Source: Gemmatimonadota bacterium (GTDB lineage Bacteria > Gemmatimonadota > Gemmatimonadetes > Gemmatimonadales > Gemmatimonadaceae). From it: 63,534 bases of DNA. Below the pieces are notes generated by a model that saw only the letters and a list, made by a program, of their open reading frames with translations, did no database searches and was not told the DNA's origin. Positions 12,625 through 23,032 of the stretch are shown here, piece by piece. How positions within the stretch are numbered: position 1 is the first letter of the stretch; every line of letters starts with the position of its first letter. The stretch lies in assembly GCA_023249375.1 (NCBI GenBank), contig JAHFCT010000018.1:1-63534 (forward strand). The letters are read 5' to 3'. The position numbers and the translations under genes were made by a program.

Positions 12625-12652
12625 TTGCCGAACTGGTCGTAGTGCGTATGAC
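12625..12652 (+). promoter_or_regulatory. Possible promoter for the phosphorylase/PTS genes
   Basis: TTGCCG (12625-12630) and TATGAC (12647-12652) are separated by 16 bases in the divergent gap upstream of the pyrimidine phosphorylase. The match is moderate and would give a leader of about 55 bases. Confidence 0.3.
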
Positions 12653-12713
12653 CGGGGGTGTGCGCCCGCCCCGGCCCACGAGGGAACGTACGGGGCGCGT
12701 TGCCACACGGTCA

Positions 12714-14042
<1,329 letters not shown>

Positions 14043-14150: not shown

Positions 14151-15245
14151 ATGGCGTCTTTCCGGCAGCCCGTGATGCAACAAGCGCTGCGGCAGCACAA
14201 GCAGTATCTCCTCACCGGCGTGTCGTACGTGATCCCGATGATCGCGTGCGGCGGCATCCTCATCGCGTCGGCCATCGCGCTGCTGACGTTCCTGCACCCC
14301 GAGGCGATGACGAGCACGGGCGGGCCGGACTTCTCGGCGGCGCCGACGCTCAAGGTGATTCTCGACATCGGCGTGGCGGCGTTCACGCTCGCGCTCCCCG
14401 TGCTCGCCGGCTACATCGCGTACGCGATGGCCGGACGCCCGGGACTCGTGCCGGGACTCATCGGCGGATACCTCGCGGGCACTACGAAAGCCGGATTCCT
14501 CGGCGCGCTCCTCGCCGGTCTGCTGGCCGGGCACGTGGTGTCGCTGCTGAAGAAGATGCCGGTCCACAAGTTCGTGCGGCCGATCCTGCCGATCATCATC
14601 ATCCCCATCGTCTCATCGCTCGTCGTGGGCATCGTGATGCTGAAGGTGCTGGGCGTGCCGATCGCCGAGTTCATGACCTTCCTCGGCGGTTGGCTGACGA
14701 CGATGAGCCAGGGCAACGCGCTCGTGCTCGCGGCGATTCTGGGCGCGATGATTGCGTTCGACATGGGCGGGCCGGTGAACAAGGCGGCGTTCTTCTTTGG
14801 CGCCGCCATGATCAAGGAAGGGAACTATGCGGTGATGGGCGCGTGCGCCGCGGCCATTTGCACGCCGCCGCTCGGCCTCGCGCTGGCCACGCTCACCGGC
14901 AAGCGCCTGTGGACGGAAGAACAGCGCGAGTCGGGGCTGGCCGCGCTCGGCATGGGCATGGTCGGCATCACCGAAGGCGCCATTCCATTCGCCGCGGCTG
15001 ATCCCCTGCGCGTCATTCCATCCATCATGGCGGGTTCCATCGTTGCGGCGGTCGTTGCGATGATGGGCGGCGTGGGCGACCACGCGCCGCACGGAGGACC
15101 GATCGTCCTTCCCGTCGTTGATCATCGCTGGATGTACGTGGCGGCGATTCTCGCCGGCTCCGCGGTGACCGCGCTGGTGATCAACGTCCTGAAGACCACG
15201 ACCGACGAAAAGCCCGCGGCGGACGCCGCTGGAGCTGCCTCGTGA
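14151..15245 (+). CDS. PTS fructose-family EIIC membrane component
   Basis: A 364-residue inner-membrane sugar channel with about nine to ten hydrophobic segments. It opens with HKQYLLTGVSYVIPMIACGGILIA, the standard start of fructose-type EIIC domains. It also holds AIPFAAADPLRVIPS (family GAIPFxxxDPxRVIP) and NKAAFFFG motifs. In most fructose systems EIIB and EIIC are fused; here they are separate genes joined by a GTGA overlap. No specificity for fructose versus mannosyl substrates can be read from sequence. The adjacent GH38 gene favours a mannose- or mannoside-related substrate. Confidence 0.92.
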   Translation: MASFRQPVMQQALRQHKQYLLTGVSYVIPMIACGGILIASAIALLTFLHPEAMTSTGGPDFSAAPTLKVILDIGVAAFTLALPVLAGYIAYAMAGRPGLVPGLIGGYLAGTTKAGFLGALLAGLLAGHVVSLLKKMPVHKFVRPILPIIIIPIVSSLVVGIVMLKVLGVPIAEFMTFLGGWLTTMSQGNALVLAAILGAMIAFDMGGPVNKAAFFFGAAMIKEGNYAVMGACAAAICTPPLGLALATLTGKRLWTEEQRESGLAALGMGMVGITEGAIPFAAADPLRVIPSIMAGSIVAAVVAMMGGVGDHAPHGGPIVLPVVDHRWMYVAAILAGSAVTALVINVLKTTTDEKPAADAAGAAS

Positions 15246-15535
15246 GAATCGTCGCCGTCACCGCCTGCCCGACGGGCGTTGCCCATACGTACATGGCGGC
15301 CGAACAACTCGAGCAGACCGCACGTGCGCTCGGCCACTCGATCAAAGTCGAAACGCAGGGCGCCATGGGCATCGAGAATGAGTTGAGCCAGGCCGATGTG
15401 GACGCGGCCGATGCCGCGATCATCGCCGCCGATATTTCCATCGAACAGCCCGAGCGGTTTTCGCGCATTCGCAAGATCGAGGTGCCCGTGCACGCCGTGC
15501 TCAAGGACCCTGGAGCGCTGTTCGCGAGGCTATGA
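15242..15535 (+). CDS. PTS fructose-family EIIB component
   Basis: A 97-residue stand-alone EIIB domain, which passes phosphate from EIIA to the incoming sugar. The phosphorylated residue is Cys9 in the canonical loop ACPTGVAHTYMAAE. GTG at 15242 overlaps the EIIC stop (GTGA), so translation is probably coupled. The full domain length and conserved ETQG segment indicate a working protein. Confidence 0.95.
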   Translation: MRIVAVTACPTGVAHTYMAAEQLEQTARALGHSIKVETQGAMGIENELSQADVDAADAAIIAADISIEQPERFSRIRKIEVPVHAVLKDPGALFARL

Positions 15536-15538
15536 TCC

Positions 15539-18052
15539 GTGGCTCGTGATTGCGCCTTCGTCTGCCAGCTTGCGAGCGGCTTCCACGCGCGACCGGCGAG
15601 CGCGCTCGAGCAGGCGACACGGCGTTTCGCGGCCGAGCTGACGCTTCACAACGAGCGCACCGGCGCATTGGCGAACGCCAAGAGCGTGCTCGGCATCGTC
15701 GGACTCGACATTCGGCATGGTGACGGCTGTCGCATTGTGTGCGAGGGCCCGGATGAGTACGAGGCGGCGGAAGCGCTCACGCGCTTCGTTACCGACGAGT
15801 TGCTGCGCGCCGACGCGGCGATGCCGCCAGTCCCGTCGTCAGCGGCGCTTCCGCTGCCTCGCTTGCTGGAGCAGGCCCACGCCACCGTGTTGCGCGGTTC
15901 ACCGGTTGTCCGCGGCATTGGTCACGGTGGCGCGATGCGTGTGCACGGGTTCGTCATACCCGAACCTCTCGTTTCGGCTCGAACGGATGATCCCCACGCC
16001 GAATGGGAACGCCTGCAGGACGCGCTGCGCGCGCTCGACGCGCAGTACGAGGCCGAACTTGCGGTGGACGGCACCGGCGTCGCGGCCGAGGTGCTGCGTG
16101 CGCACCAGGCCATTGCGCGGGACCCGGCACTGGCCGAGCATCTGCAGCGGTCCGTGCGGCAGCATCAACTCGGCGCGGCGGGCGCCATTGTGGCGGCGGA
16201 AGCGAACTTCGCCGCCATGCTCGCGGCGTCCGAAAGCGCGCCCCTGCGCGAGCGCGCGCTCGACGTCCGCGACGTTTGTCGCCAACTGTTCGAAGCCATG
16301 TACGGCGCGAACCACGCGTCAGCGCCCAGGCCGTTGACGTGCGATACCGTGTGCATCGCCGAGAACCTGACGCCGCGCGAGTTCCTCTCGCTGGACCGTC
16401 GGTTCCTGCAGGGGTTGGTGCTCGAGCACGCCGCCGCGACGTCGCACACGATCGTTCTCGCTCGTTCGTTCGGCGTGCCGACGCTCAGCGGAGTGGCTGG
16501 ACTGCGCGCGACGGTGAGCGACGGCGATGACGTCACGGTGGATGCGGATCTCGGCGTCCTCGTGACGCGCGGCAATGCCGCGACGCGCCGCTACTACGCC
16601 ATGGAGCGCGCGCGCATCGCCGGCCGGCGTGAGCGGCTGCTGCGCGCTGCGGCAAAGCCCGCCGCCACCTCGGACGGCCGCATAGTGGAGATTGGCGTCA
16701 ACGTTGCGACGGGTGCCGAAGCGGCCGCCGCCGTTTCGGCCGGTGCCGACGGCATCGGCCTGTTCAGGACCGAACTGCTGTTCATGCATCGCGGCGATGC
16801 GCCCAGCGAGGACGAACAGTTTGAGGACTACCGGCGCGCACTCGCGGGTGCCGCGGGCAAGCCGGTGATCATTCGCACGCTCGATATCGGCGGCGACAAG
16901 CCCATTGCGTACCTGCGTCTTCCGCGCGAAGAGAATCCGTTCCTCGGGTTCCGCGCGGTGCGGATGTACGCGCGCTTCGAGGATGTCGTGCGCACGCAGC
17001 TACGCGCTCTCGTGCGGGCGTCGGCGTTTGGCAATCTCAAGGTGATGGTGCCCATGGTGTCGCGCCTCGATGAGGCCGAGTATGTGCGGCGCCTGATTTC
17101 CGAGGAGCAGGCGCGCTGCGCGGCGGCTGGCGTGGCGTTCGATGCGTCCATGCAGGTCGGCGCGATGGTCGAAGTGCCGTCCATGGCATATCAGATGGCG
17201 CAGTTCAGCCGCGTCTTTGATTTCTTCAGCATCGGCACCAACGATCTGCTCCAGTATTTCAGCGCGGTCGATCGCGGCAATCAAACCGTCGCGCACCTGC
17301 ACGACCCGCTGTCGCCGGCGTTTCTCCAGTTGCTGCGGCAGATCGTGGACGGCGCGCACGCGGCCGGACGTTGGGTGGGAATGTGCGGAGAGCTTGCCGG
17401 CGATGCCCAGGCGTTGCCGCTCCTGGTCGGACTTGGCCTCGACGAACTCAGCATGGCCGCGTCGCGTGTGGCAGAGACCAAGGCGGCCGTGCAGTCGCTG
17501 GGCGCCGCGCAGTGCCGCGCGCTTGTCGCGACGGCGATCGAATGCGCGACGAGCCGCGACGTCGCTGCCGCTGTGGAGTCATTCGATGGATGGCGGCCTG
17601 TTCCGCTCATCACCCCCGATCTCGTCGTCGTGGACGCCGACTGTGACTCCCGTGAGGAAGCCATCAAGGCCGTCGTTGACCGCCTCTACGTCACGGGCCG
17701 CACCGATCACCCGCGTGACGTCGAAGCGGCGGTCTGGCAGCGCGAGGCGGTGTACTCGACGGCGTTCGGCCACGGCTTCGCGATCCCGCACTGCCAGTCG
17801 GACGCGCTCAAGGCGAATTCGCTGGTCATCCTGAGAACGAGGCAGCCGGTGGCATGGGAGTCGCTCGATGGTCAGCCGGTGTCGGTGCTGCTGCTCCTCG
17901 CCATTCGATCGGCCGAGCACGCCACGGCGCACCTGAAGATCCTCGCGTCGCTTTCGCGAAAGCTGATGCACGCGTCCACCCGTGAACAGGTGTTGTGCGA
18001 GCAGGACCCGGCGGCGCTCTGCCGCTATCTGATGGAATGCGTTGGTGAGTGA
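15539..18052 (+). CDS. Fused PTS phosphotransferase HPr-EI-EIIA (fructose family)
   Basis: An 837-residue cytoplasmic protein that holds the entire phosphoryl chain from PEP to EIIB. The HPr domain has His16 in ASGFHARPAS. The EI domain (about residues 110-680) has active His303 in ATSHTIVLARS, the PEP-binding segments LFRTELLFM and IRTLDIGGDKP, and the GMCGELAGD motif. The EIIA domain has His751 in GHGFAIPHCQ. All three phosphorylation sites are intact. The GTG start lies 3 bases after the EIIB stop. Known FruB-type proteins join some of these domains; this order with EIIA at the C-terminus and with EIIB and EIIC separate is less common. No 1-phosphofructokinase gene is present in the cluster. 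Confidence 0.94.
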   Translation: MARDCAFVCQLASGFHARPASALEQATRRFAAELTLHNERTGALANAKSVLGIVGLDIRHGDGCRIVCEGPDEYEAAEALTRFVTDELLRADAAMPPVPSSAALPLPRLLEQAHATVLRGSPVVRGIGHGGAMRVHGFVIPEPLVSARTDDPHAEWERLQDALRALDAQYEAELAVDGTGVAAEVLRAHQAIARDPALAEHLQRSVRQHQLGAAGAIVAAEANFAAMLAASESAPLRERALDVRDVCRQLFEAMYGANHASAPRPLTCDTVCIAENLTPREFLSLDRRFLQGLVLEHAAATSHTIVLARSFGVPTLSGVAGLRATVSDGDDVTVDADLGVLVTRGNAATRRYYAMERARIAGRRERLLRAAAKPAATSDGRIVEIGVNVATGAEAAAAVSAGADGIGLFRTELLFMHRGDAPSEDEQFEDYRRALAGAAGKPVIIRTLDIGGDKPIAYLRLPREENPFLGFRAVRMYARFEDVVRTQLRALVRASAFGNLKVMVPMVSRLDEAEYVRRLISEEQARCAAAGVAFDASMQVGAMVEVPSMAYQMAQFSRVFDFFSIGTNDLLQYFSAVDRGNQTVAHLHDPLSPAFLQLLRQIVDGAHAAGRWVGMCGELAGDAQALPLLVGLGLDELSMAASRVAETKAAVQSLGAAQCRALVATAIECATSRDVAAAVESFDGWRPVPLITPDLVVVDADCDSREEAIKAVVDRLYVTGRTDHPRDVEAAVWQREAVYSTAFGHGFAIPHCQSDALKANSLVILRTRQPVAWESLDGQPVSVLLLLAIRSAEHATAHLKILASLSRKLMHASTREQVLCEQDPAALCRYLMECVGE

Positions 18053-18097
18053 TGTGACACGAAGTGCACGCTGGAATCCTCTCTGGAGATGCAGGTC

Positions 18098-21000
18098 ATG
18101 CCCCGATATCTGAAGTGGTTGGCGGTCTTCCTTGCCGCTGTGTTGGCTCTGCCCACGGCCGCGCGCGCCCAAGGCGCGCCCCGCGTCGCGCCCGACTTGT
18201 CCAAGGACGCCACGCTGTACGTGGTGCCCTATGCGCATCTCGATACCCAGTGGCGCTGGGACTACCCGACGACGATTCGCGAGTATCTGTCCGCGACGCT
18301 GCGCGACAACTTCGCGCTCTTCGAGAAGTACCCGAACTACACATTCAATTTCAGCGGCGCCAACCGCTATCGGATGATCAAGGAGTACTACCCGGCCGAC
18401 TACGCCAAGATGAAGGCGTACATCGCGGCCGGCCGCTGGTTCCCCTCCGGCTCCTCGATGGAAGAGAACGACGTCAACTCGCCGTCGGCCGAGTCGACCA
18501 TTCGCCAGATCCTCTATGGCACGCAGTATTTCCGGAGCGAGTTCGGCAAGACCAGCGCCGAGTACATGCTCCCCGATTGCTTCGGTTTTCCGGCGTCACT
18601 ACCGAGCATTCTCGCGCACATGGGCCTCAAGGGATTCTCCACGCAGAAGCTGAGCTGGAACTCCGCGATGGGCATTCCGTTCAATGTCGGGTACTGGGAA
18701 GGGCTCGACGGCAAGGGTATCGTCGCCGCGCTCAACGCGATGACGTACAGCGGCGACGTGCGGCAGGACATCACGCAGAGCCCGCCGGCGTCGGCGCTCG
18801 CGAATCCGCGCGGCGCCCCCACCGATTGGCCCAAGCGCATCCAGGAGAACGCCCAGAAGGGCGGACTCCTCACGGACTATTACTACTACGGCACCGGCGA
18901 CATCGGCGGCTCCCCACGCGAACCCTCGGTGGCGCTGATGGAGGCGATCATCACGAAGGGCTTGGGCATCATTCCGCCGCCGCAGGTCCAGCGTGCGCCG
19001 GGCGCGCCTGCGCCCGCACCAGTCGAGGCGCCACGGCCGGTGAAGGTCGGCCAAGGTGCGTTGCACGTGGTGCAAGGCAGCGCCGAGCAGATGTTTCTCG
19101 ACATCAAGCCTGAACAGATCGCGGGTCTGCAGCACTACAAGGGCGACCTGCTGCTCATCGAGCACTCGGCGGGCTCGCTCACGTCGCAGACGTATCTCAA
19201 ACGTTGGAATCGACAGAACGAAGTGCTCGCCGATGCCGCCGAGCGCGCGTCGGTGGCGGCCGCGTGGCTAGGTGCGCGTCCGTATCCAATGAAGCGTCTG
19301 AACGACGCATGGACGCTCGTGATGGGCGGGCAGTTCCACGACGTGATTCCGGGCACGTCGATTCCCAAGGCGTACGAGTATGCCTGGAACGACCAACTCT
19401 TGGCGCTGAATCAGTTCTCGACGGTGCTGACCAGCGCCACGGATGCCGTGTCATCGGCCATGAACACCCAAGTGAAGGGTGTGCCGGTGACGGTGTTCAA
19501 CCCGCTGAACATCGCGCGCGAGGACGCGGTGGAAGCAGCGGTCACGTTCGCGAACGGAACACCAAAGGCGGTGCGCGTCACTGGGCCCGACGGCAAGGAC
19601 GTGGCGGCGCAGCTCACGCTCGCCGGCAAGGTGCTCTTCCTCGCCAAGGTGCCGTCGTCGGGCTACGCCGTCTTCGACGTGCAGCCTGCGGACGTGGCGG
19701 CACCCGCCAAGGCGATGTCGGTCTCGGAATCATCGCTCGAAAATGCCCGCTACCGCATTGCCATCGACCAGAACGGCGATGTGTCCAGCGTGTACGACAA
19801 GCTGGTCAAGAAGGAACTGCTCTCGGCGCCGATTCGCCTCGCCATCAAGACCGACAAGCCGGTGGACTGGCCCGCGTGGAACATGGACTGGGCCGATCAA
19901 CAGAAGGCGCCCCGCGCTTTTGTGCAGGGCCCGGCGAAAGTGCGCGTCGTCGAACGCGGTCCGGCGCGCGTCGCGGTTGAGATCTCGCGCCAGACCGAAG
20001 GGTCCATGTTTGTACAGACCATTCGCCTTGCGGCCGGCGATGCGGGCAATCGCGTGGAGTTCGGCAACGTCATCGACTGGAAGACCGCCGAGGCCAACCT
20101 CAAAGCGACGTTCTCGCTGAGCGCGGAGAATTCGCTGGCCACGTACAACTGGGACATCGGCACGATCCAGCGCGGCAACAACAACGAAAAGAAGTTCGAA
20201 GTGCCGTCGCATCAGTGGCTCGATCTCACCGACAAGAGCGGCGCATTTGGCGTGACGGTCCTGTCGGACAGCAAGAACGCCTCTGACAAGCCCGACGATC
20301 ACACGCTGCGGTTGACCCTGATGCGCACGCCCGGCATCGGCACCGGCAATGGGCGGTCGTACGCCGACCAGTCGAGCCAGGACTGGGGGCATCACGAGTT
20401 CGTGTTCGGGCTGGCGGCGCACGCCGGCGACTGGCGGCAAGGCCAAACCGACTGGCAGGCCTGGCGTTTGAACCAGCCGCTGCTCGCGTTCGAAGTGCCC
20501 AAGCATGCCGGCGCACTTGGCCAGAGCTTTTCGCTCTTTACGCTCAGCAACAATCGCGTGCGCACGCTCGCCGTGAAACACGCGGAGCAGAGTGAGGAGA
20601 TCGTCGTGCGCTTGGTGGAACTCGATGGCAAGCCGGCCAAGGGCGTGCGTCTCGCGTTCGCCGGCCCCATCGCGTCGGCGCGCGAAATCACCGGCGCGGA
20701 ACAGCCGCTGGGCGTCGCCACGTTGACGGCGGGCGCGCTCGTGACGGATTTCACACCCTATCAGATCCGAAGCTTCGCGCTCACGCTCGGCGCGGCGCCA
20801 ACGACGGCCACCGCAGCCGCGTCACAGTCCGTCGCGCTTGCCTACGATCGCAAGGTCGCCAGCACCGATCACTCCGTGAGTGGTGGCACCTTCGATGGAG
20901 CGGGTCGCAGCTTGCCAGCCGAGATGCTCCCCCGCGATCTGCCATTTGGCGCGATCCACTTTGCGCTCGCACGCGCCGACTCGTTCAATGCCGTGGTCGC

Positions 21001-21499
21001 GCAAGGCCAGACGATCGCGCTGCCGCCGGGAGCGTTCAACAAGGTCTACGTGCTGGCCGCGTCCGACGGCGACCAGAAGGCGACGTTCCGTGTCGGCGAC
21101 GCGCCAGTGGAAGTCACGGTGCAGGATTGGGGCGGCTACGTCGGGCAGTGGGACAACCGCATCTGGAACAAGCGGGAAGAGCAGGTGCCGCCGCGGCCCG
21201 ACGCTCCAGCGGGCACACCGCTGCGCACGCGCACGGTGCAGGACTATGCCGGTCTCACGCCGGGATTCGTGAAGCGTGCGCCAGTGGCATGGTTCGCGTC
21301 GCATCGGCATTTGAGCGACGGCAGCAATGATCCGTATGCGTACTCGTACCTGTACGCGTACGCGTTCGACGTGCCGGCCGGAGCAACGACGCTCACGCTG
21401 CCGGTGAACAGCCGCATCCGCGTGATGGCAGTCACCGTCGCCAAGGACGGCGGCACGGTGCGCGCGGTGTCGCAGTTGTACGACGCATTGGAGAAGTAA
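18098..21499 (+). CDS. Exported GH38 alpha-mannosidase
   Basis: ATG 18098 is chosen because GGAGA lies 8 bases upstream; the ATG at 18089 sits on that ribosome site. The 1133-residue product has a Sec signal ending near AARA-QG (residue 24), so it acts in the periplasm or outside. The catalytic N-terminal domain has the zinc ligands His47 and Asp49 (AHLDTQWRWD), the likely nucleophile Asp160 (PDCFGFPASLP) and the zinc-binding His414 in QFHDVIPGTS. Middle and C-terminal mannosidase beta domains follow. It begins 45 bases after the PTS gene and is probably co-transcribed with it. The pairing recalls E. coli mngA-mngB, but MngB is cytoplasmic, whereas this enzyme is exported and would act before uptake. 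Confidence 0.92.
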   Translation: MPRYLKWLAVFLAAVLALPTAARAQGAPRVAPDLSKDATLYVVPYAHLDTQWRWDYPTTIREYLSATLRDNFALFEKYPNYTFNFSGANRYRMIKEYYPADYAKMKAYIAAGRWFPSGSSMEENDVNSPSAESTIRQILYGTQYFRSEFGKTSAEYMLPDCFGFPASLPSILAHMGLKGFSTQKLSWNSAMGIPFNVGYWEGLDGKGIVAALNAMTYSGDVRQDITQSPPASALANPRGAPTDWPKRIQENAQKGGLLTDYYYYGTGDIGGSPREPSVALMEAIITKGLGIIPPPQVQRAPGAPAPAPVEAPRPVKVGQGALHVVQGSAEQMFLDIKPEQIAGLQHYKGDLLLIEHSAGSLTSQTYLKRWNRQNEVLADAAERASVAAAWLGARPYPMKRLNDAWTLVMGGQFHDVIPGTSIPKAYEYAWNDQLLALNQFSTVLTSATDAVSSAMNTQVKGVPVTVFNPLNIAREDAVEAAVTFANGTPKAVRVTGPDGKDVAAQLTLAGKVLFLAKVPSSGYAVFDVQPADVAAPAKAMSVSESSLENARYRIAIDQNGDVSSVYDKLVKKELLSAPIRLAIKTDKPVDWPAWNMDWADQQKAPRAFVQGPAKVRVVERGPARVAVEISRQTEGSMFVQTIRLAAGDAGNRVEFGNVIDWKTAEANLKATFSLSAENSLATYNWDIGTIQRGNNNEKKFEVPSHQWLDLTDKSGAFGVTVLSDSKNASDKPDDHTLRLTLMRTPGIGTGNGRSYADQSSQDWGHHEFVFGLAAHAGDWRQGQTDWQAWRLNQPLLAFEVPKHAGALGQSFSLFTLSNNRVRTLAVKHAEQSEEIVVRLVELDGKPAKGVRLAFAGPIASAREITGAEQPLGVATLTAGALVTDFTPYQIRSFALTLGAAPTTATAAASQSVALAYDRKVASTDHSVSGGTFDGAGRSLPAEMLPRDLPFGAIHFALARADSFNAVVAQGQTIALPPGAFNKVYVLAASDGDQKATFRVGDAPVEVTVQDWGGYVGQWDNRIWNKREEQVPPRPDAPAGTPLRTRTVQDYAGLTPGFVKRAPVAWFASHRHLSDGSNDPYAYSYLYAYAFDVPAGATTLTLPVNSRIRVMAVTVAKDGGTVRAVSQLYDALEK

Positions 21500-21513
21500 G
21501 GTTCAGGATTGAC

Positions 21514-21635
21514 GGCAGGAATCACGGATCCCGATCGCGGACGACGACGGCCGATGGCGATTGCCGATAAACCAATCGCGATCCAAGTCCGTAGTCTGTA
21601 TCATCAATCGAAATCCGTGATCCCTGTCCTCAGTC
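21514..21635. repeat. Dispersed ATC-phased repeat, copy A
   Basis: It fills the space between the mannosidase and the serine hydrolase. The right end holds the invariant core AATCCGTGATCCCTGTCC (21612-21629). The left end (21514-21530, GGCAGGAATCACGGATC) is nearly its inverse complement, with two mismatches and one gap. Between them a 7-bp hairpin pairs GCGATTG with CAATCGC. The element stops about 8 bases before the hydrolase ATG, so it forms the leader of that gene. Confidence 0.8.
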
Positions 21636-21643
21636 GAGGCCCC

Positions 21644-23032
21644 ATGCTCGCGCGCCGATCATTGCTCGTCTTCGCCGCCGTCTTCGCCACCGTCTTTGCC
21701 GCCGTCTTCGCGGCTCCGCTGCTGGCGCAGTCACCCAACGATTCCACGATTCGCGCCATCCTCAAGGAGCGCGTCGATGCCGGCCGCTTTGTCGGCGTCG
21801 TCGTGGGCCTCGTGACCCGCGAGGGCACGCGCCGAGTCATCGCCTACGAACACAACGCGGGCGTGCAGCCGTTCGACGGCAACACCGTCTTCGAGATCGG
21901 CTCCATCACCAAGACGTTTACCGCGGCGATTCTCGCCGACATGGTGAGGCAGGGTGAAGTCTCGCTGGACGACCCGGTGGTGAAGTTCCTCCCGGCTGGC
22001 ACTGTGATCCCGGCTCGCGACGGCAAGCAGATCACGCTGCTCGATCTCGCCACGCAGTCGTCGGGATTGCCGGGGATGCCCGACAATTTCAAGCCGAAGG
22101 ATGCCACCAACCCGTACGCGGACTACACGGTCGCCCAGATGTACGAGTTCCTCGGCCGCTACCAGCTGACGCGCGACATCGGATCCAAGTACGAGTATTC
22201 CAATCTTGGCGTCGGGCTGCTCGGGCATGCGCTCGCGCTCAAAGCCGGCAAGCCGTACGAAGCGCTCGTGACGGAACGCGTGCTCAAACCGCTCGGAATG
22301 AACGACACGCGCATTACGCTCACGAGCGCAATGGAGAAGCATCTCGCCCCCGGGCATGCTCCCGACGGCGCGCCGGCGCACAACTGGGATCTGCCCACGC
22401 TCGCCGGCGCCGGTGCCCTCCGCTCGAGCGTGAACGACATGCTCATCTACATTCACGCCAACGCGGACTCGATGTCCAGGCCGCTCGGCGCCACGCTGGC
22501 GATGACGCATTTCGCACGGCGTCCCGGCCCATCGACGCAGCTCATGCTCGGCCTGGCCTGGCATCGTCTCAAGGGACCCGGTGGCACCACCCTCGTCTGG
22601 CACAACGGCGGCACGGGCGGCTACCGCACCTTCACTGGCTACAGCGAGGCGACGGGCGAAGGTGTCGTGGTGCTCTCAAACACCGCCCAAAGTGTTGACG
22701 ACATCGGCATGCATCTGCTCGACGCGAGCTTCCCGCTCGCGCCCGTGCCGAAGCAGCGCACGGCAATCTCGCTCGCGGCCGACGTGCTCGACCGCTACCT
22801 CGGTACCTTCGCCATCACGCCCGCCTTTGCGTTGACCATTACCCGCGAAGGAACGCAGCTCTACGCGCAGGCCACCGATCAGCCGCGCTTCGCGCTCTTC
22901 GCCGAAAAGGAGGACGAGTTCTTCCTGAAGGTGGTGGACGCGCAGGTCTCGTTCACGAAGGACAGCACGGGCGCGGTGACCGGGCTGGTGCTCCACCAGA
23001 ATGGGGCAAATATGAAAGCAGTGAGGAAATAG
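21644..23032 (+). CDS. Exported serine hydrolase (class C beta-lactamase/PBP-like)
   Basis: ATG 21644 is preferred because it starts directly with a signal peptide; an open frame upstream runs through the repeat. The 462-residue product has a Sec signal cleaved near LLAQS (residue 29). The catalytic Ser87 and Lys90 are in GSITK, Tyr185-Ser-Asn187 in EYSNLG, and the third motif is HNGGTGG in place of KTG. This combination is shared by class C beta-lactamases, DD-peptidases and esterases. A C-terminal beta domain of about 100 residues follows. True antibiotic hydrolysis is not implied. The signal peptide contains a 12-base tandem repeat. Confidence 0.87.
   Translation: MLARRSLLVFAAVFATVFAAVFAAPLLAQSPNDSTIRAILKERVDAGRFVGVVVGLVTREGTRRVIAYEHNAGVQPFDGNTVFEIGSITKTFTAAILADMVRQGEVSLDDPVVKFLPAGTVIPARDGKQITLLDLATQSSGLPGMPDNFKPKDATNPYADYTVAQMYEFLGRYQLTRDIGSKYEYSNLGVGLLGHALALKAGKPYEALVTERVLKPLGMNDTRITLTSAMEKHLAPGHAPDGAPAHNWDLPTLAGAGALRSSVNDMLIYIHANADSMSRPLGATLAMTHFARRPGPSTQLMLGLAWHRLKGPGGTTLVWHNGGTGGYRTFTGYSEATGEGVVVLSNTAQSVDDIGMHLLDASFPLAPVPKQRTAISLAADVLDRYLGTFAITPAFALTITREGTQLYAQATDQPRFALFAEKEDEFFLKVVDAQVSFTKDSTGAVTGLVLHQNGANMKAVRK
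21668..21715 (+). repeat. Four 12-base tandem repeats in a signal peptide
   Basis: Four in-frame copies of a GTCTTCGCCGCC-type unit encode VFAA, VFAT, VFAA and VFAA, forming nearly the whole hydrophobic core of the serine hydrolase signal peptide. Gain or loss of a unit would change the signal length without a frameshift. Confidence 0.9.

Follow-up and report, generated by a model that had tools for sequence, protein, structure and literature searches.

Gene content of the locus

The stretch of DNA analysed here (the window) is the first 63,534 nucleotides of contig JAHFCT010000018.1 of a Gemmatimonadota bacterium (GCA_023249375.1). Its genome (3.81 Mb, 120 contigs, completeness 95.9%) was also searched for specific families. 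Between positions 14151 and 21499 the window codes for the EIIC and EIIB subunits of a PTS, an HPr-EI-EIIA fusion protein and a GH38 alpha-mannosidase whose N-terminus resembles a signal peptide, all of them with intact catalytic residues, and the four open reading frames lie where an earlier note on this DNA had placed them. Together with a pyrimidine-nucleoside/thymidine phosphorylase gene located upstream (12642–14042, forward strand; NF004490, 534 bits) they form a row of five genes in one direction. The phosphorylase gene is 108 bp from that of EIIC, the genes of EIIC and EIIB overlap by 4 bp, and the spacers between EIIB and the fusion and between the fusion and GH38 are only 3 and 36 bp long. 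The earlier note had pointed out the phosphorylase in front of the PTS, but none of the 81 related loci described below contained a match (0/81) and we take it to be an incidental neighbor outside the unit. On the other side, roughly 150 bp beyond the GH38 gene, comes the gene of a serine beta-lactamase/AmpH-like protein with a DUF3471 domain (21509–23032; from about 21.65 kb); this gene had no consistent place across the related loci. No AraC regulator was found beside the PTS in the window.

A Frw-like PTS with its own HPr and EI

EIIC (14151–15245, forward strand, 364 aa) carries the PTS_EIIC domain and falls within the fructose-family subfamily TIGR01427 (290 bits, cut-off 157.55). EIIB (15242–15535, forward strand, 97 aa; PTS_IIB domain) was recognized by TIGR00829 with 110 bits (cut-off 76.85) and has its phosphocysteine, Cys9, within the motif TACPTG. 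The third protein (15539–18052, forward strand, 837 aa) is a multiphosphoryl transfer protein in which a PTS-HPr domain (15557–15793; PF00381, 74.9 bits) is followed by PEP-utilisers_N, PEP-utilizers and PEP-utilizers_C and by a fructose-class EIIA domain (PTS_EIIA_2, 17606–18034; PF00359, 111 bits). The three phosphorylatable histidines, His16 (GFHARP), His303 (TSHTIVLARS) and His751 (AIPHCQ), are found, like Cys9, exactly at the residues where they had been noted before, and they are also conserved among the relatives (68/68, 65/65 and 64/64 sequences respectively, and 79/80 for Cys9).

The fusion aligns end to end with PtsA (39% identity) and FryA (38%) of E. coli and shares their HPr-EI-EIIA order, whereas in FruB the HPr comes after the EIIA. 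Having this order and all three histidines in one protein, it belongs to the Fry/Frw type of multiphosphoryl transfer proteins. The identity of EIIC to its E. coli K-12 counterparts decreases from FrwC (48.5%) to FruA (42.5%), MngA (34%) and FryC (29%), and that of EIIB to FrwB is 49%. Therefore, the closest E. coli relatives of the three PTS proteins are FrwC, FrwB and PtsA (FrwA) rather than FruA or MngA, the latter of which had previously been cited as the E. coli parallel. EIIC scored 373 bits against the FrwC equivalog (PRK10478/NF007787), below its cut-off of 426 bits and the 720 bits of E. coli FrwC itself. On these scores, the identity to FrwC and the EIIC tree, we classify the system as a Frw-like PTS of the fructose family.

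The E. coli Frw cluster differs from the window in having no mannosidase nearby (its neighbors are pflD, pflC, fsaB and gldA), but it is adjacent to an AraC-type gene, yijO, which has relatives among the AraC genes found at GH38-linked loci. Its substrate is given only as “fructose-like” (PMC10305011). The FruBKA fructose PTS has in common with the window a TIGR01427 EIIC and an EIIA of the EIIA_2 class but, in addition to the different domain order and the EIIC identity given above, it possesses fruK, which is absent from the window genome. The imported sugar cannot be fixed from the EIIC sequence alone, and none of the solved structures searched by sequence matched EIIC.

A predicted exported GH38 mannosidase

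The gene that follows the fusion (18089–21499, forward strand, 1136 aa) codes for a protein with the N, middle and C domains of the GH38 family (four Pfam domains). The metal and nucleophile residues His50, Asp52, Asp163 and His417 are present and conserved in the relatives, and the protein would be expected to act as an alpha-mannosidase. The sequence of the junction with the fusion makes an ATG at position 18098, with GGAG upstream, the likelier start. The N-terminus, MPRYLKWLAVFLAAVLALPTAARA followed by QG, is signal-like, combining a positive end and a hydrophobic core with an ARA/QG junction. The best solved relatives are Ams1-type and bacterial GH38 enzymes (7vqo, 6lz1, 7ufs), with which the zinc and nucleophile residues align. 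Compared with these structures, the window protein is of exported type, has no long N-terminal domain like theirs and carries an additional C-terminal beta-sandwich. This last part, 251 residues long (20744–21496, forward strand), is conserved as a domain in the exported type according to an alignment of 29 sequences, and was predicted as a beta-sandwich by AlphaFold2 (pLDDT 86). Its only strong fold match, with Z 22 and 22% identity, was an unexpected relative, the AziU2/U3 complex from the biosynthesis of azinomycin. The next matches resembled carbohydrate-binding modules, with Z of about 7–8, values that may just reflect a common arrangement.

A fructose-family PTS also adjoins a GH38 mannosidase in the mannosylglycerate system MngA-MngB of E. 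coli. MngB works in the cytoplasm, on a substrate that is already phosphorylated, and the existence of this adjacent pair is the reason to consider that the window cluster could likewise process phosphorylated mannosides in the cytoplasm. However, MngA is a single IIABC protein that uses the general EI and HPr, and MngB has only nine residues ahead of its catalytic motif region, which leaves no room for a signal peptide. By contrast, the window GH38 is signal-like, and so were, in a heuristic test, the N-termini of all the linked GH38 proteins that could be tested in the related loci (46/46). The identity of the window GH38 to MngB is also low, 22% in an alignment of 187 residues, and its score against the mannosylglycerate hydrolase equivalog was 71 bits, for a cut-off of 1138. 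The contrast with the intracellular MngB that the earlier note had drawn thus holds, and we reject cleavage in the manner of MngAB, which we regard as very improbable given the export signal and the family scores.

Conservation of the pairing across phyla

A scan of named genomes provided 80 related loci (EIIC 53–82% identical) that, together with that of a second Gemmatimonadota genome (G273), make 81, mainly from Acidobacteriota, Planctomycetota, Verrucomicrobiota and Aminicenantes. Many of them are cut by contig ends; we have considered as complete the 39 loci in which the fusion gene is whole and the flanks reach 3 kb or more in both directions. A GH38 gene was found within 1 kb in 29 of these 39 and within 10 kb in 31, while over the 81 loci it was present within 1 kb in 44. 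The linked loci belong to Acidobacteriota (12), Planctomycetota (14), Verrucomicrobiota (4) and Aminicenantes (6), and also to Ignavibacteriota, Bacteroidota and bacteria labeled as Chrysiogenota or unclassified, these labels being those of the MAG records, some of which may be wrong. None of the eight related loci of Bacillota (Firmicutes) had a GH38. The mannosidase is directly downstream in most loci and upstream or divergent in others. The same PTS clade has two distinct types of GH38 linked to it, that of the window (42–82% identical) and an Ams1-like one found in Aminicenantes (about 27%). In nine loci, of Aminicenantes and a few others (L030, L034, L038, L045, L048, L050, L074, L075 and L078), an Ams1-like GH38, signal-like where its start is readable, is located directly upstream. 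The pairwise distances of EIIC and GH38 were correlated (r 0.73, a value not reached in any of 2000 permutations). Joint inheritance would produce such a correlation, although the history shared by the species also contributes to it.

The recurrence of this linkage over many phyla, in numerous unrelated bacteria from soil and sediment, and with two exported types of GH38 leads us to consider that the PTS and the exported mannosidase form a unit, as had been proposed from the window alone and now has strong comparative support. That a fructose PTS of the ordinary kind and a mannosidase unrelated to it came to be neighbors by chance in one genome might be argued from the genomes in which GH38 and EIIC are found apart, but is already contradicted by their adjacency in so many complete loci with several gene orders, and we give it hardly any credence. 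In the literature searched, outside which most subscription papers fall, we found no description of a Frw-type PTS paired with an exported GH38.

The related loci showed some other features. An AraC-type regulator is located beside the PTS in 24 of them, mostly divergent and upstream, and the regulators share 28–37% identity with YijO, encoded next to frw in E. coli, and 27–36% with YpdC, encoded next to fry. In seven loci (L042, L060, L076, L079, L086, L097 and L098) a gene for a HupE/UreJ-like membrane protein comes directly after a longer GH38 of about 1460–1520 aa. Loci without GH38 can have other glycan enzymes: GH76 and GH43 are found in L065, and in L054 EIIB and the fusion are separated by an NPCBM protein and an MGH1-like glycosidase domain. 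EIIC, EIIB and GH38 are adjacent in L096 (1346–6882), where an HPr-EI-EIIA fusion gene is missing both between these genes and next to them, and an Oligoflexia locus without GH38 (L061, 4781–5782) codes for a short HPr-EIIA protein of 333 aa that lacks the EI part.

Distribution within the Gemmatimonadota

Within the phylum the EIIC was found in only two of 298 genomes, that of the window and G273, which belongs to another family of the same order and has an EIIC 88% identical; seven genomes of the same genus as the window lack it. In a quick version of the EIIC tree, with very long E. coli branches and an uncertain exact root, these two sequences group with three from Acidobacteria. Although base composition is not unusual (GC 0.663 versus 0.672, with similar GC3) and gives no compositional sign of recent transfer, the patchy distribution and the tree suggest that the system was probably acquired horizontally.

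Relatives of the GH38 are found in eight of the 298 genomes. Those without a Frw-type PTS (L116, L117, L118, L119, L120 and L121) count against the model of a unit, as does the lack of an AraC regulator in the window. One of these genes, in L117, is oriented divergently to a sugar ABC transporter whose binding protein is of the Peripla_BP_4 family, and in L120 the relative adjoins a GH116 enzyme. It may be that the exported GH38 feeds whatever sugar importer is at hand, and the L117 arrangement would fit this.

Other PTS and sugar enzymes in the genome

The PTS had been described as self-sufficient, and it does contain its own HPr, EI and EIIA, but these are not the only EI and HPr of the genome. 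A search for separate ptsH and ptsI genes found both on contig 103 (L011, 4600–9984), where hprK, the EIIA, EIIB, EIIC and EIID of a mannose/sorbose-class PTS, HPr and EI are in a row, with riboflavin and metK-like genes near. Three further EIIA_2 proteins were found in the genome. On contig 114 (L014, 1153–1980) there is an excisionase-like HTH_17 domain fused to EIIA_2, possibly a PTS-linked regulator.

The absence of a 1-phosphofructokinase, noted before for this region, extends to the genome. There is none in the window, no gene exceeds the TIGR03828 cut-off in this 95.9% complete genome, and the four PfkB-family kinases detected are ribokinase-like or KDG-kinase-like and all far below the FruK cut-off; the FruBKA gene set is thus not present. 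Most carriers of the PTS also lack FruK, which passed the cut-off in only three of the 40 examined; two of these three are Firmicutes that have no GH38 linked to the PTS. Five more carriers gave weaker hexose-kinase-like hits. Hence fructose is a poor fit, and its use through fructose-1-phosphate was judged unlikely.

A mannose-6-phosphate isomerase, also checked for, was not found in the window genome: there was no type I enzyme (PF01238, PF20511), no PGI/PMI (PF10432) and no credible type II enzyme. A PF01050 match was rejected since it covered 57 residues of a small secreted cupin. This could be explained by the missing parts of the genome, by an isomerase that is not recognized, by a promiscuous phosphoglucose isomerase or by the use of mannose-6-phosphate for GDP-mannose. 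Among the 40 carriers, a type I phosphomannose isomerase was found in only 19, so that the use of mannose-6-phosphate is unexplained in many of them.

These results bear on two other readings of the unit. In one, the PTS would import, in place of mannose, either a short oligosaccharide or the other product of the cleavage, an aglycone that might be fructose, as could be thought from the fructose-family EIIC and from the lack of a recognized phosphomannose isomerase in this genome and many carriers. We consider this unlikely, given that FruK is missing from most carriers, which could therefore not use fructose-1-phosphate by the usual route, that the conserved partner is of a mannose-releasing family and that there are EIIs of the fructose family able to take mannose. 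One, established experimentally, is the V. cholerae ManP, which is activated by the neighboring AraC-type ManR, a protein that binds mannose-6-phosphate at about 152 nM (PMC9392796). Judged by its published description alone, this system resembles the 24 related loci with an AraC-type regulator beside the PTS, but differs from the window in that ManP is a single IIABC protein, manA is in the operon and no mannosidase is described (PMC9392796).

In the other reading, less probable still, the PTS would act mainly as a sensor, the released sugar altering how the fusion is phosphorylated and, through this, the expression of genes, while little of it would be taken up as a nutrient. The genome has no clear catabolic enzyme for the product and has the separate mannose-class PTS with HPr kinase and the three additional EIIA_2 proteins, all of which would suit a sensor; but EIIC has been retained in complete form and is conserved at every locus, and the GH38-linked clusters examined contained no PTS-regulated (PRD) regulator.

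Proposed function and significance

With the domains, intact sites, export-type N-terminus and cross-phylum genetic linkage that are present in these sequences, we think it rather probable that the locus is an alpha-mannoside-scavenging unit in which the exported GH38 would free mannose and the Frw-type PTS would import it as mannose-6-phosphate. The mannosidase would be secreted across the inner membrane and would trim terminal alpha-linked mannose from extracellular or periplasmic glycans. Since it is exported, cleavage should precede import and the PTS should meet free mannose. The earlier idea of a system that frees and imports a mannose-containing compound is thus retained as regards the pairing of a PTS with an exported GH38, but mannose itself is the likelier cargo. 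EIIC would bind the freed mannose, its entry being coupled to phosphorylation, with the phosphate passing from PEP to His303 of EI, His16 of HPr and His751 of EIIA, all in the fusion protein, then to Cys9 of EIIB and finally to the sugar, most likely giving mannose-6-phosphate. We infer the activity of the proteins, mannose as the imported sugar, the co-transcription of the genes in this organism and the downstream use of the product.

A broader proposal, for which we would put the chances at slightly under even, is that exported GH38 and self-contained Frw-type PTS constitute a widespread, horizontally mobile module found in several phyla not usually linked to PTS uptake, with mannose as the first substrate for a Frw system and possibly a route for mannose-6-phosphate without the known isomerases. 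The PTS and GH38 families are themselves of known kinds, and what is new here is the conservation of their linkage over phyla. The many carriers without mannose-6-phosphate isomerase raise the question of the catabolic step. The cross-phylum association would provide the orphan Frw/PtsA-type PTS with a candidate substrate, mannose freed from alpha-mannosides, and points to a way in which mannose-bearing glycans may serve as a food source for some Acidobacteriota, Planctomycetota, Verrucomicrobiota and Aminicenantes.
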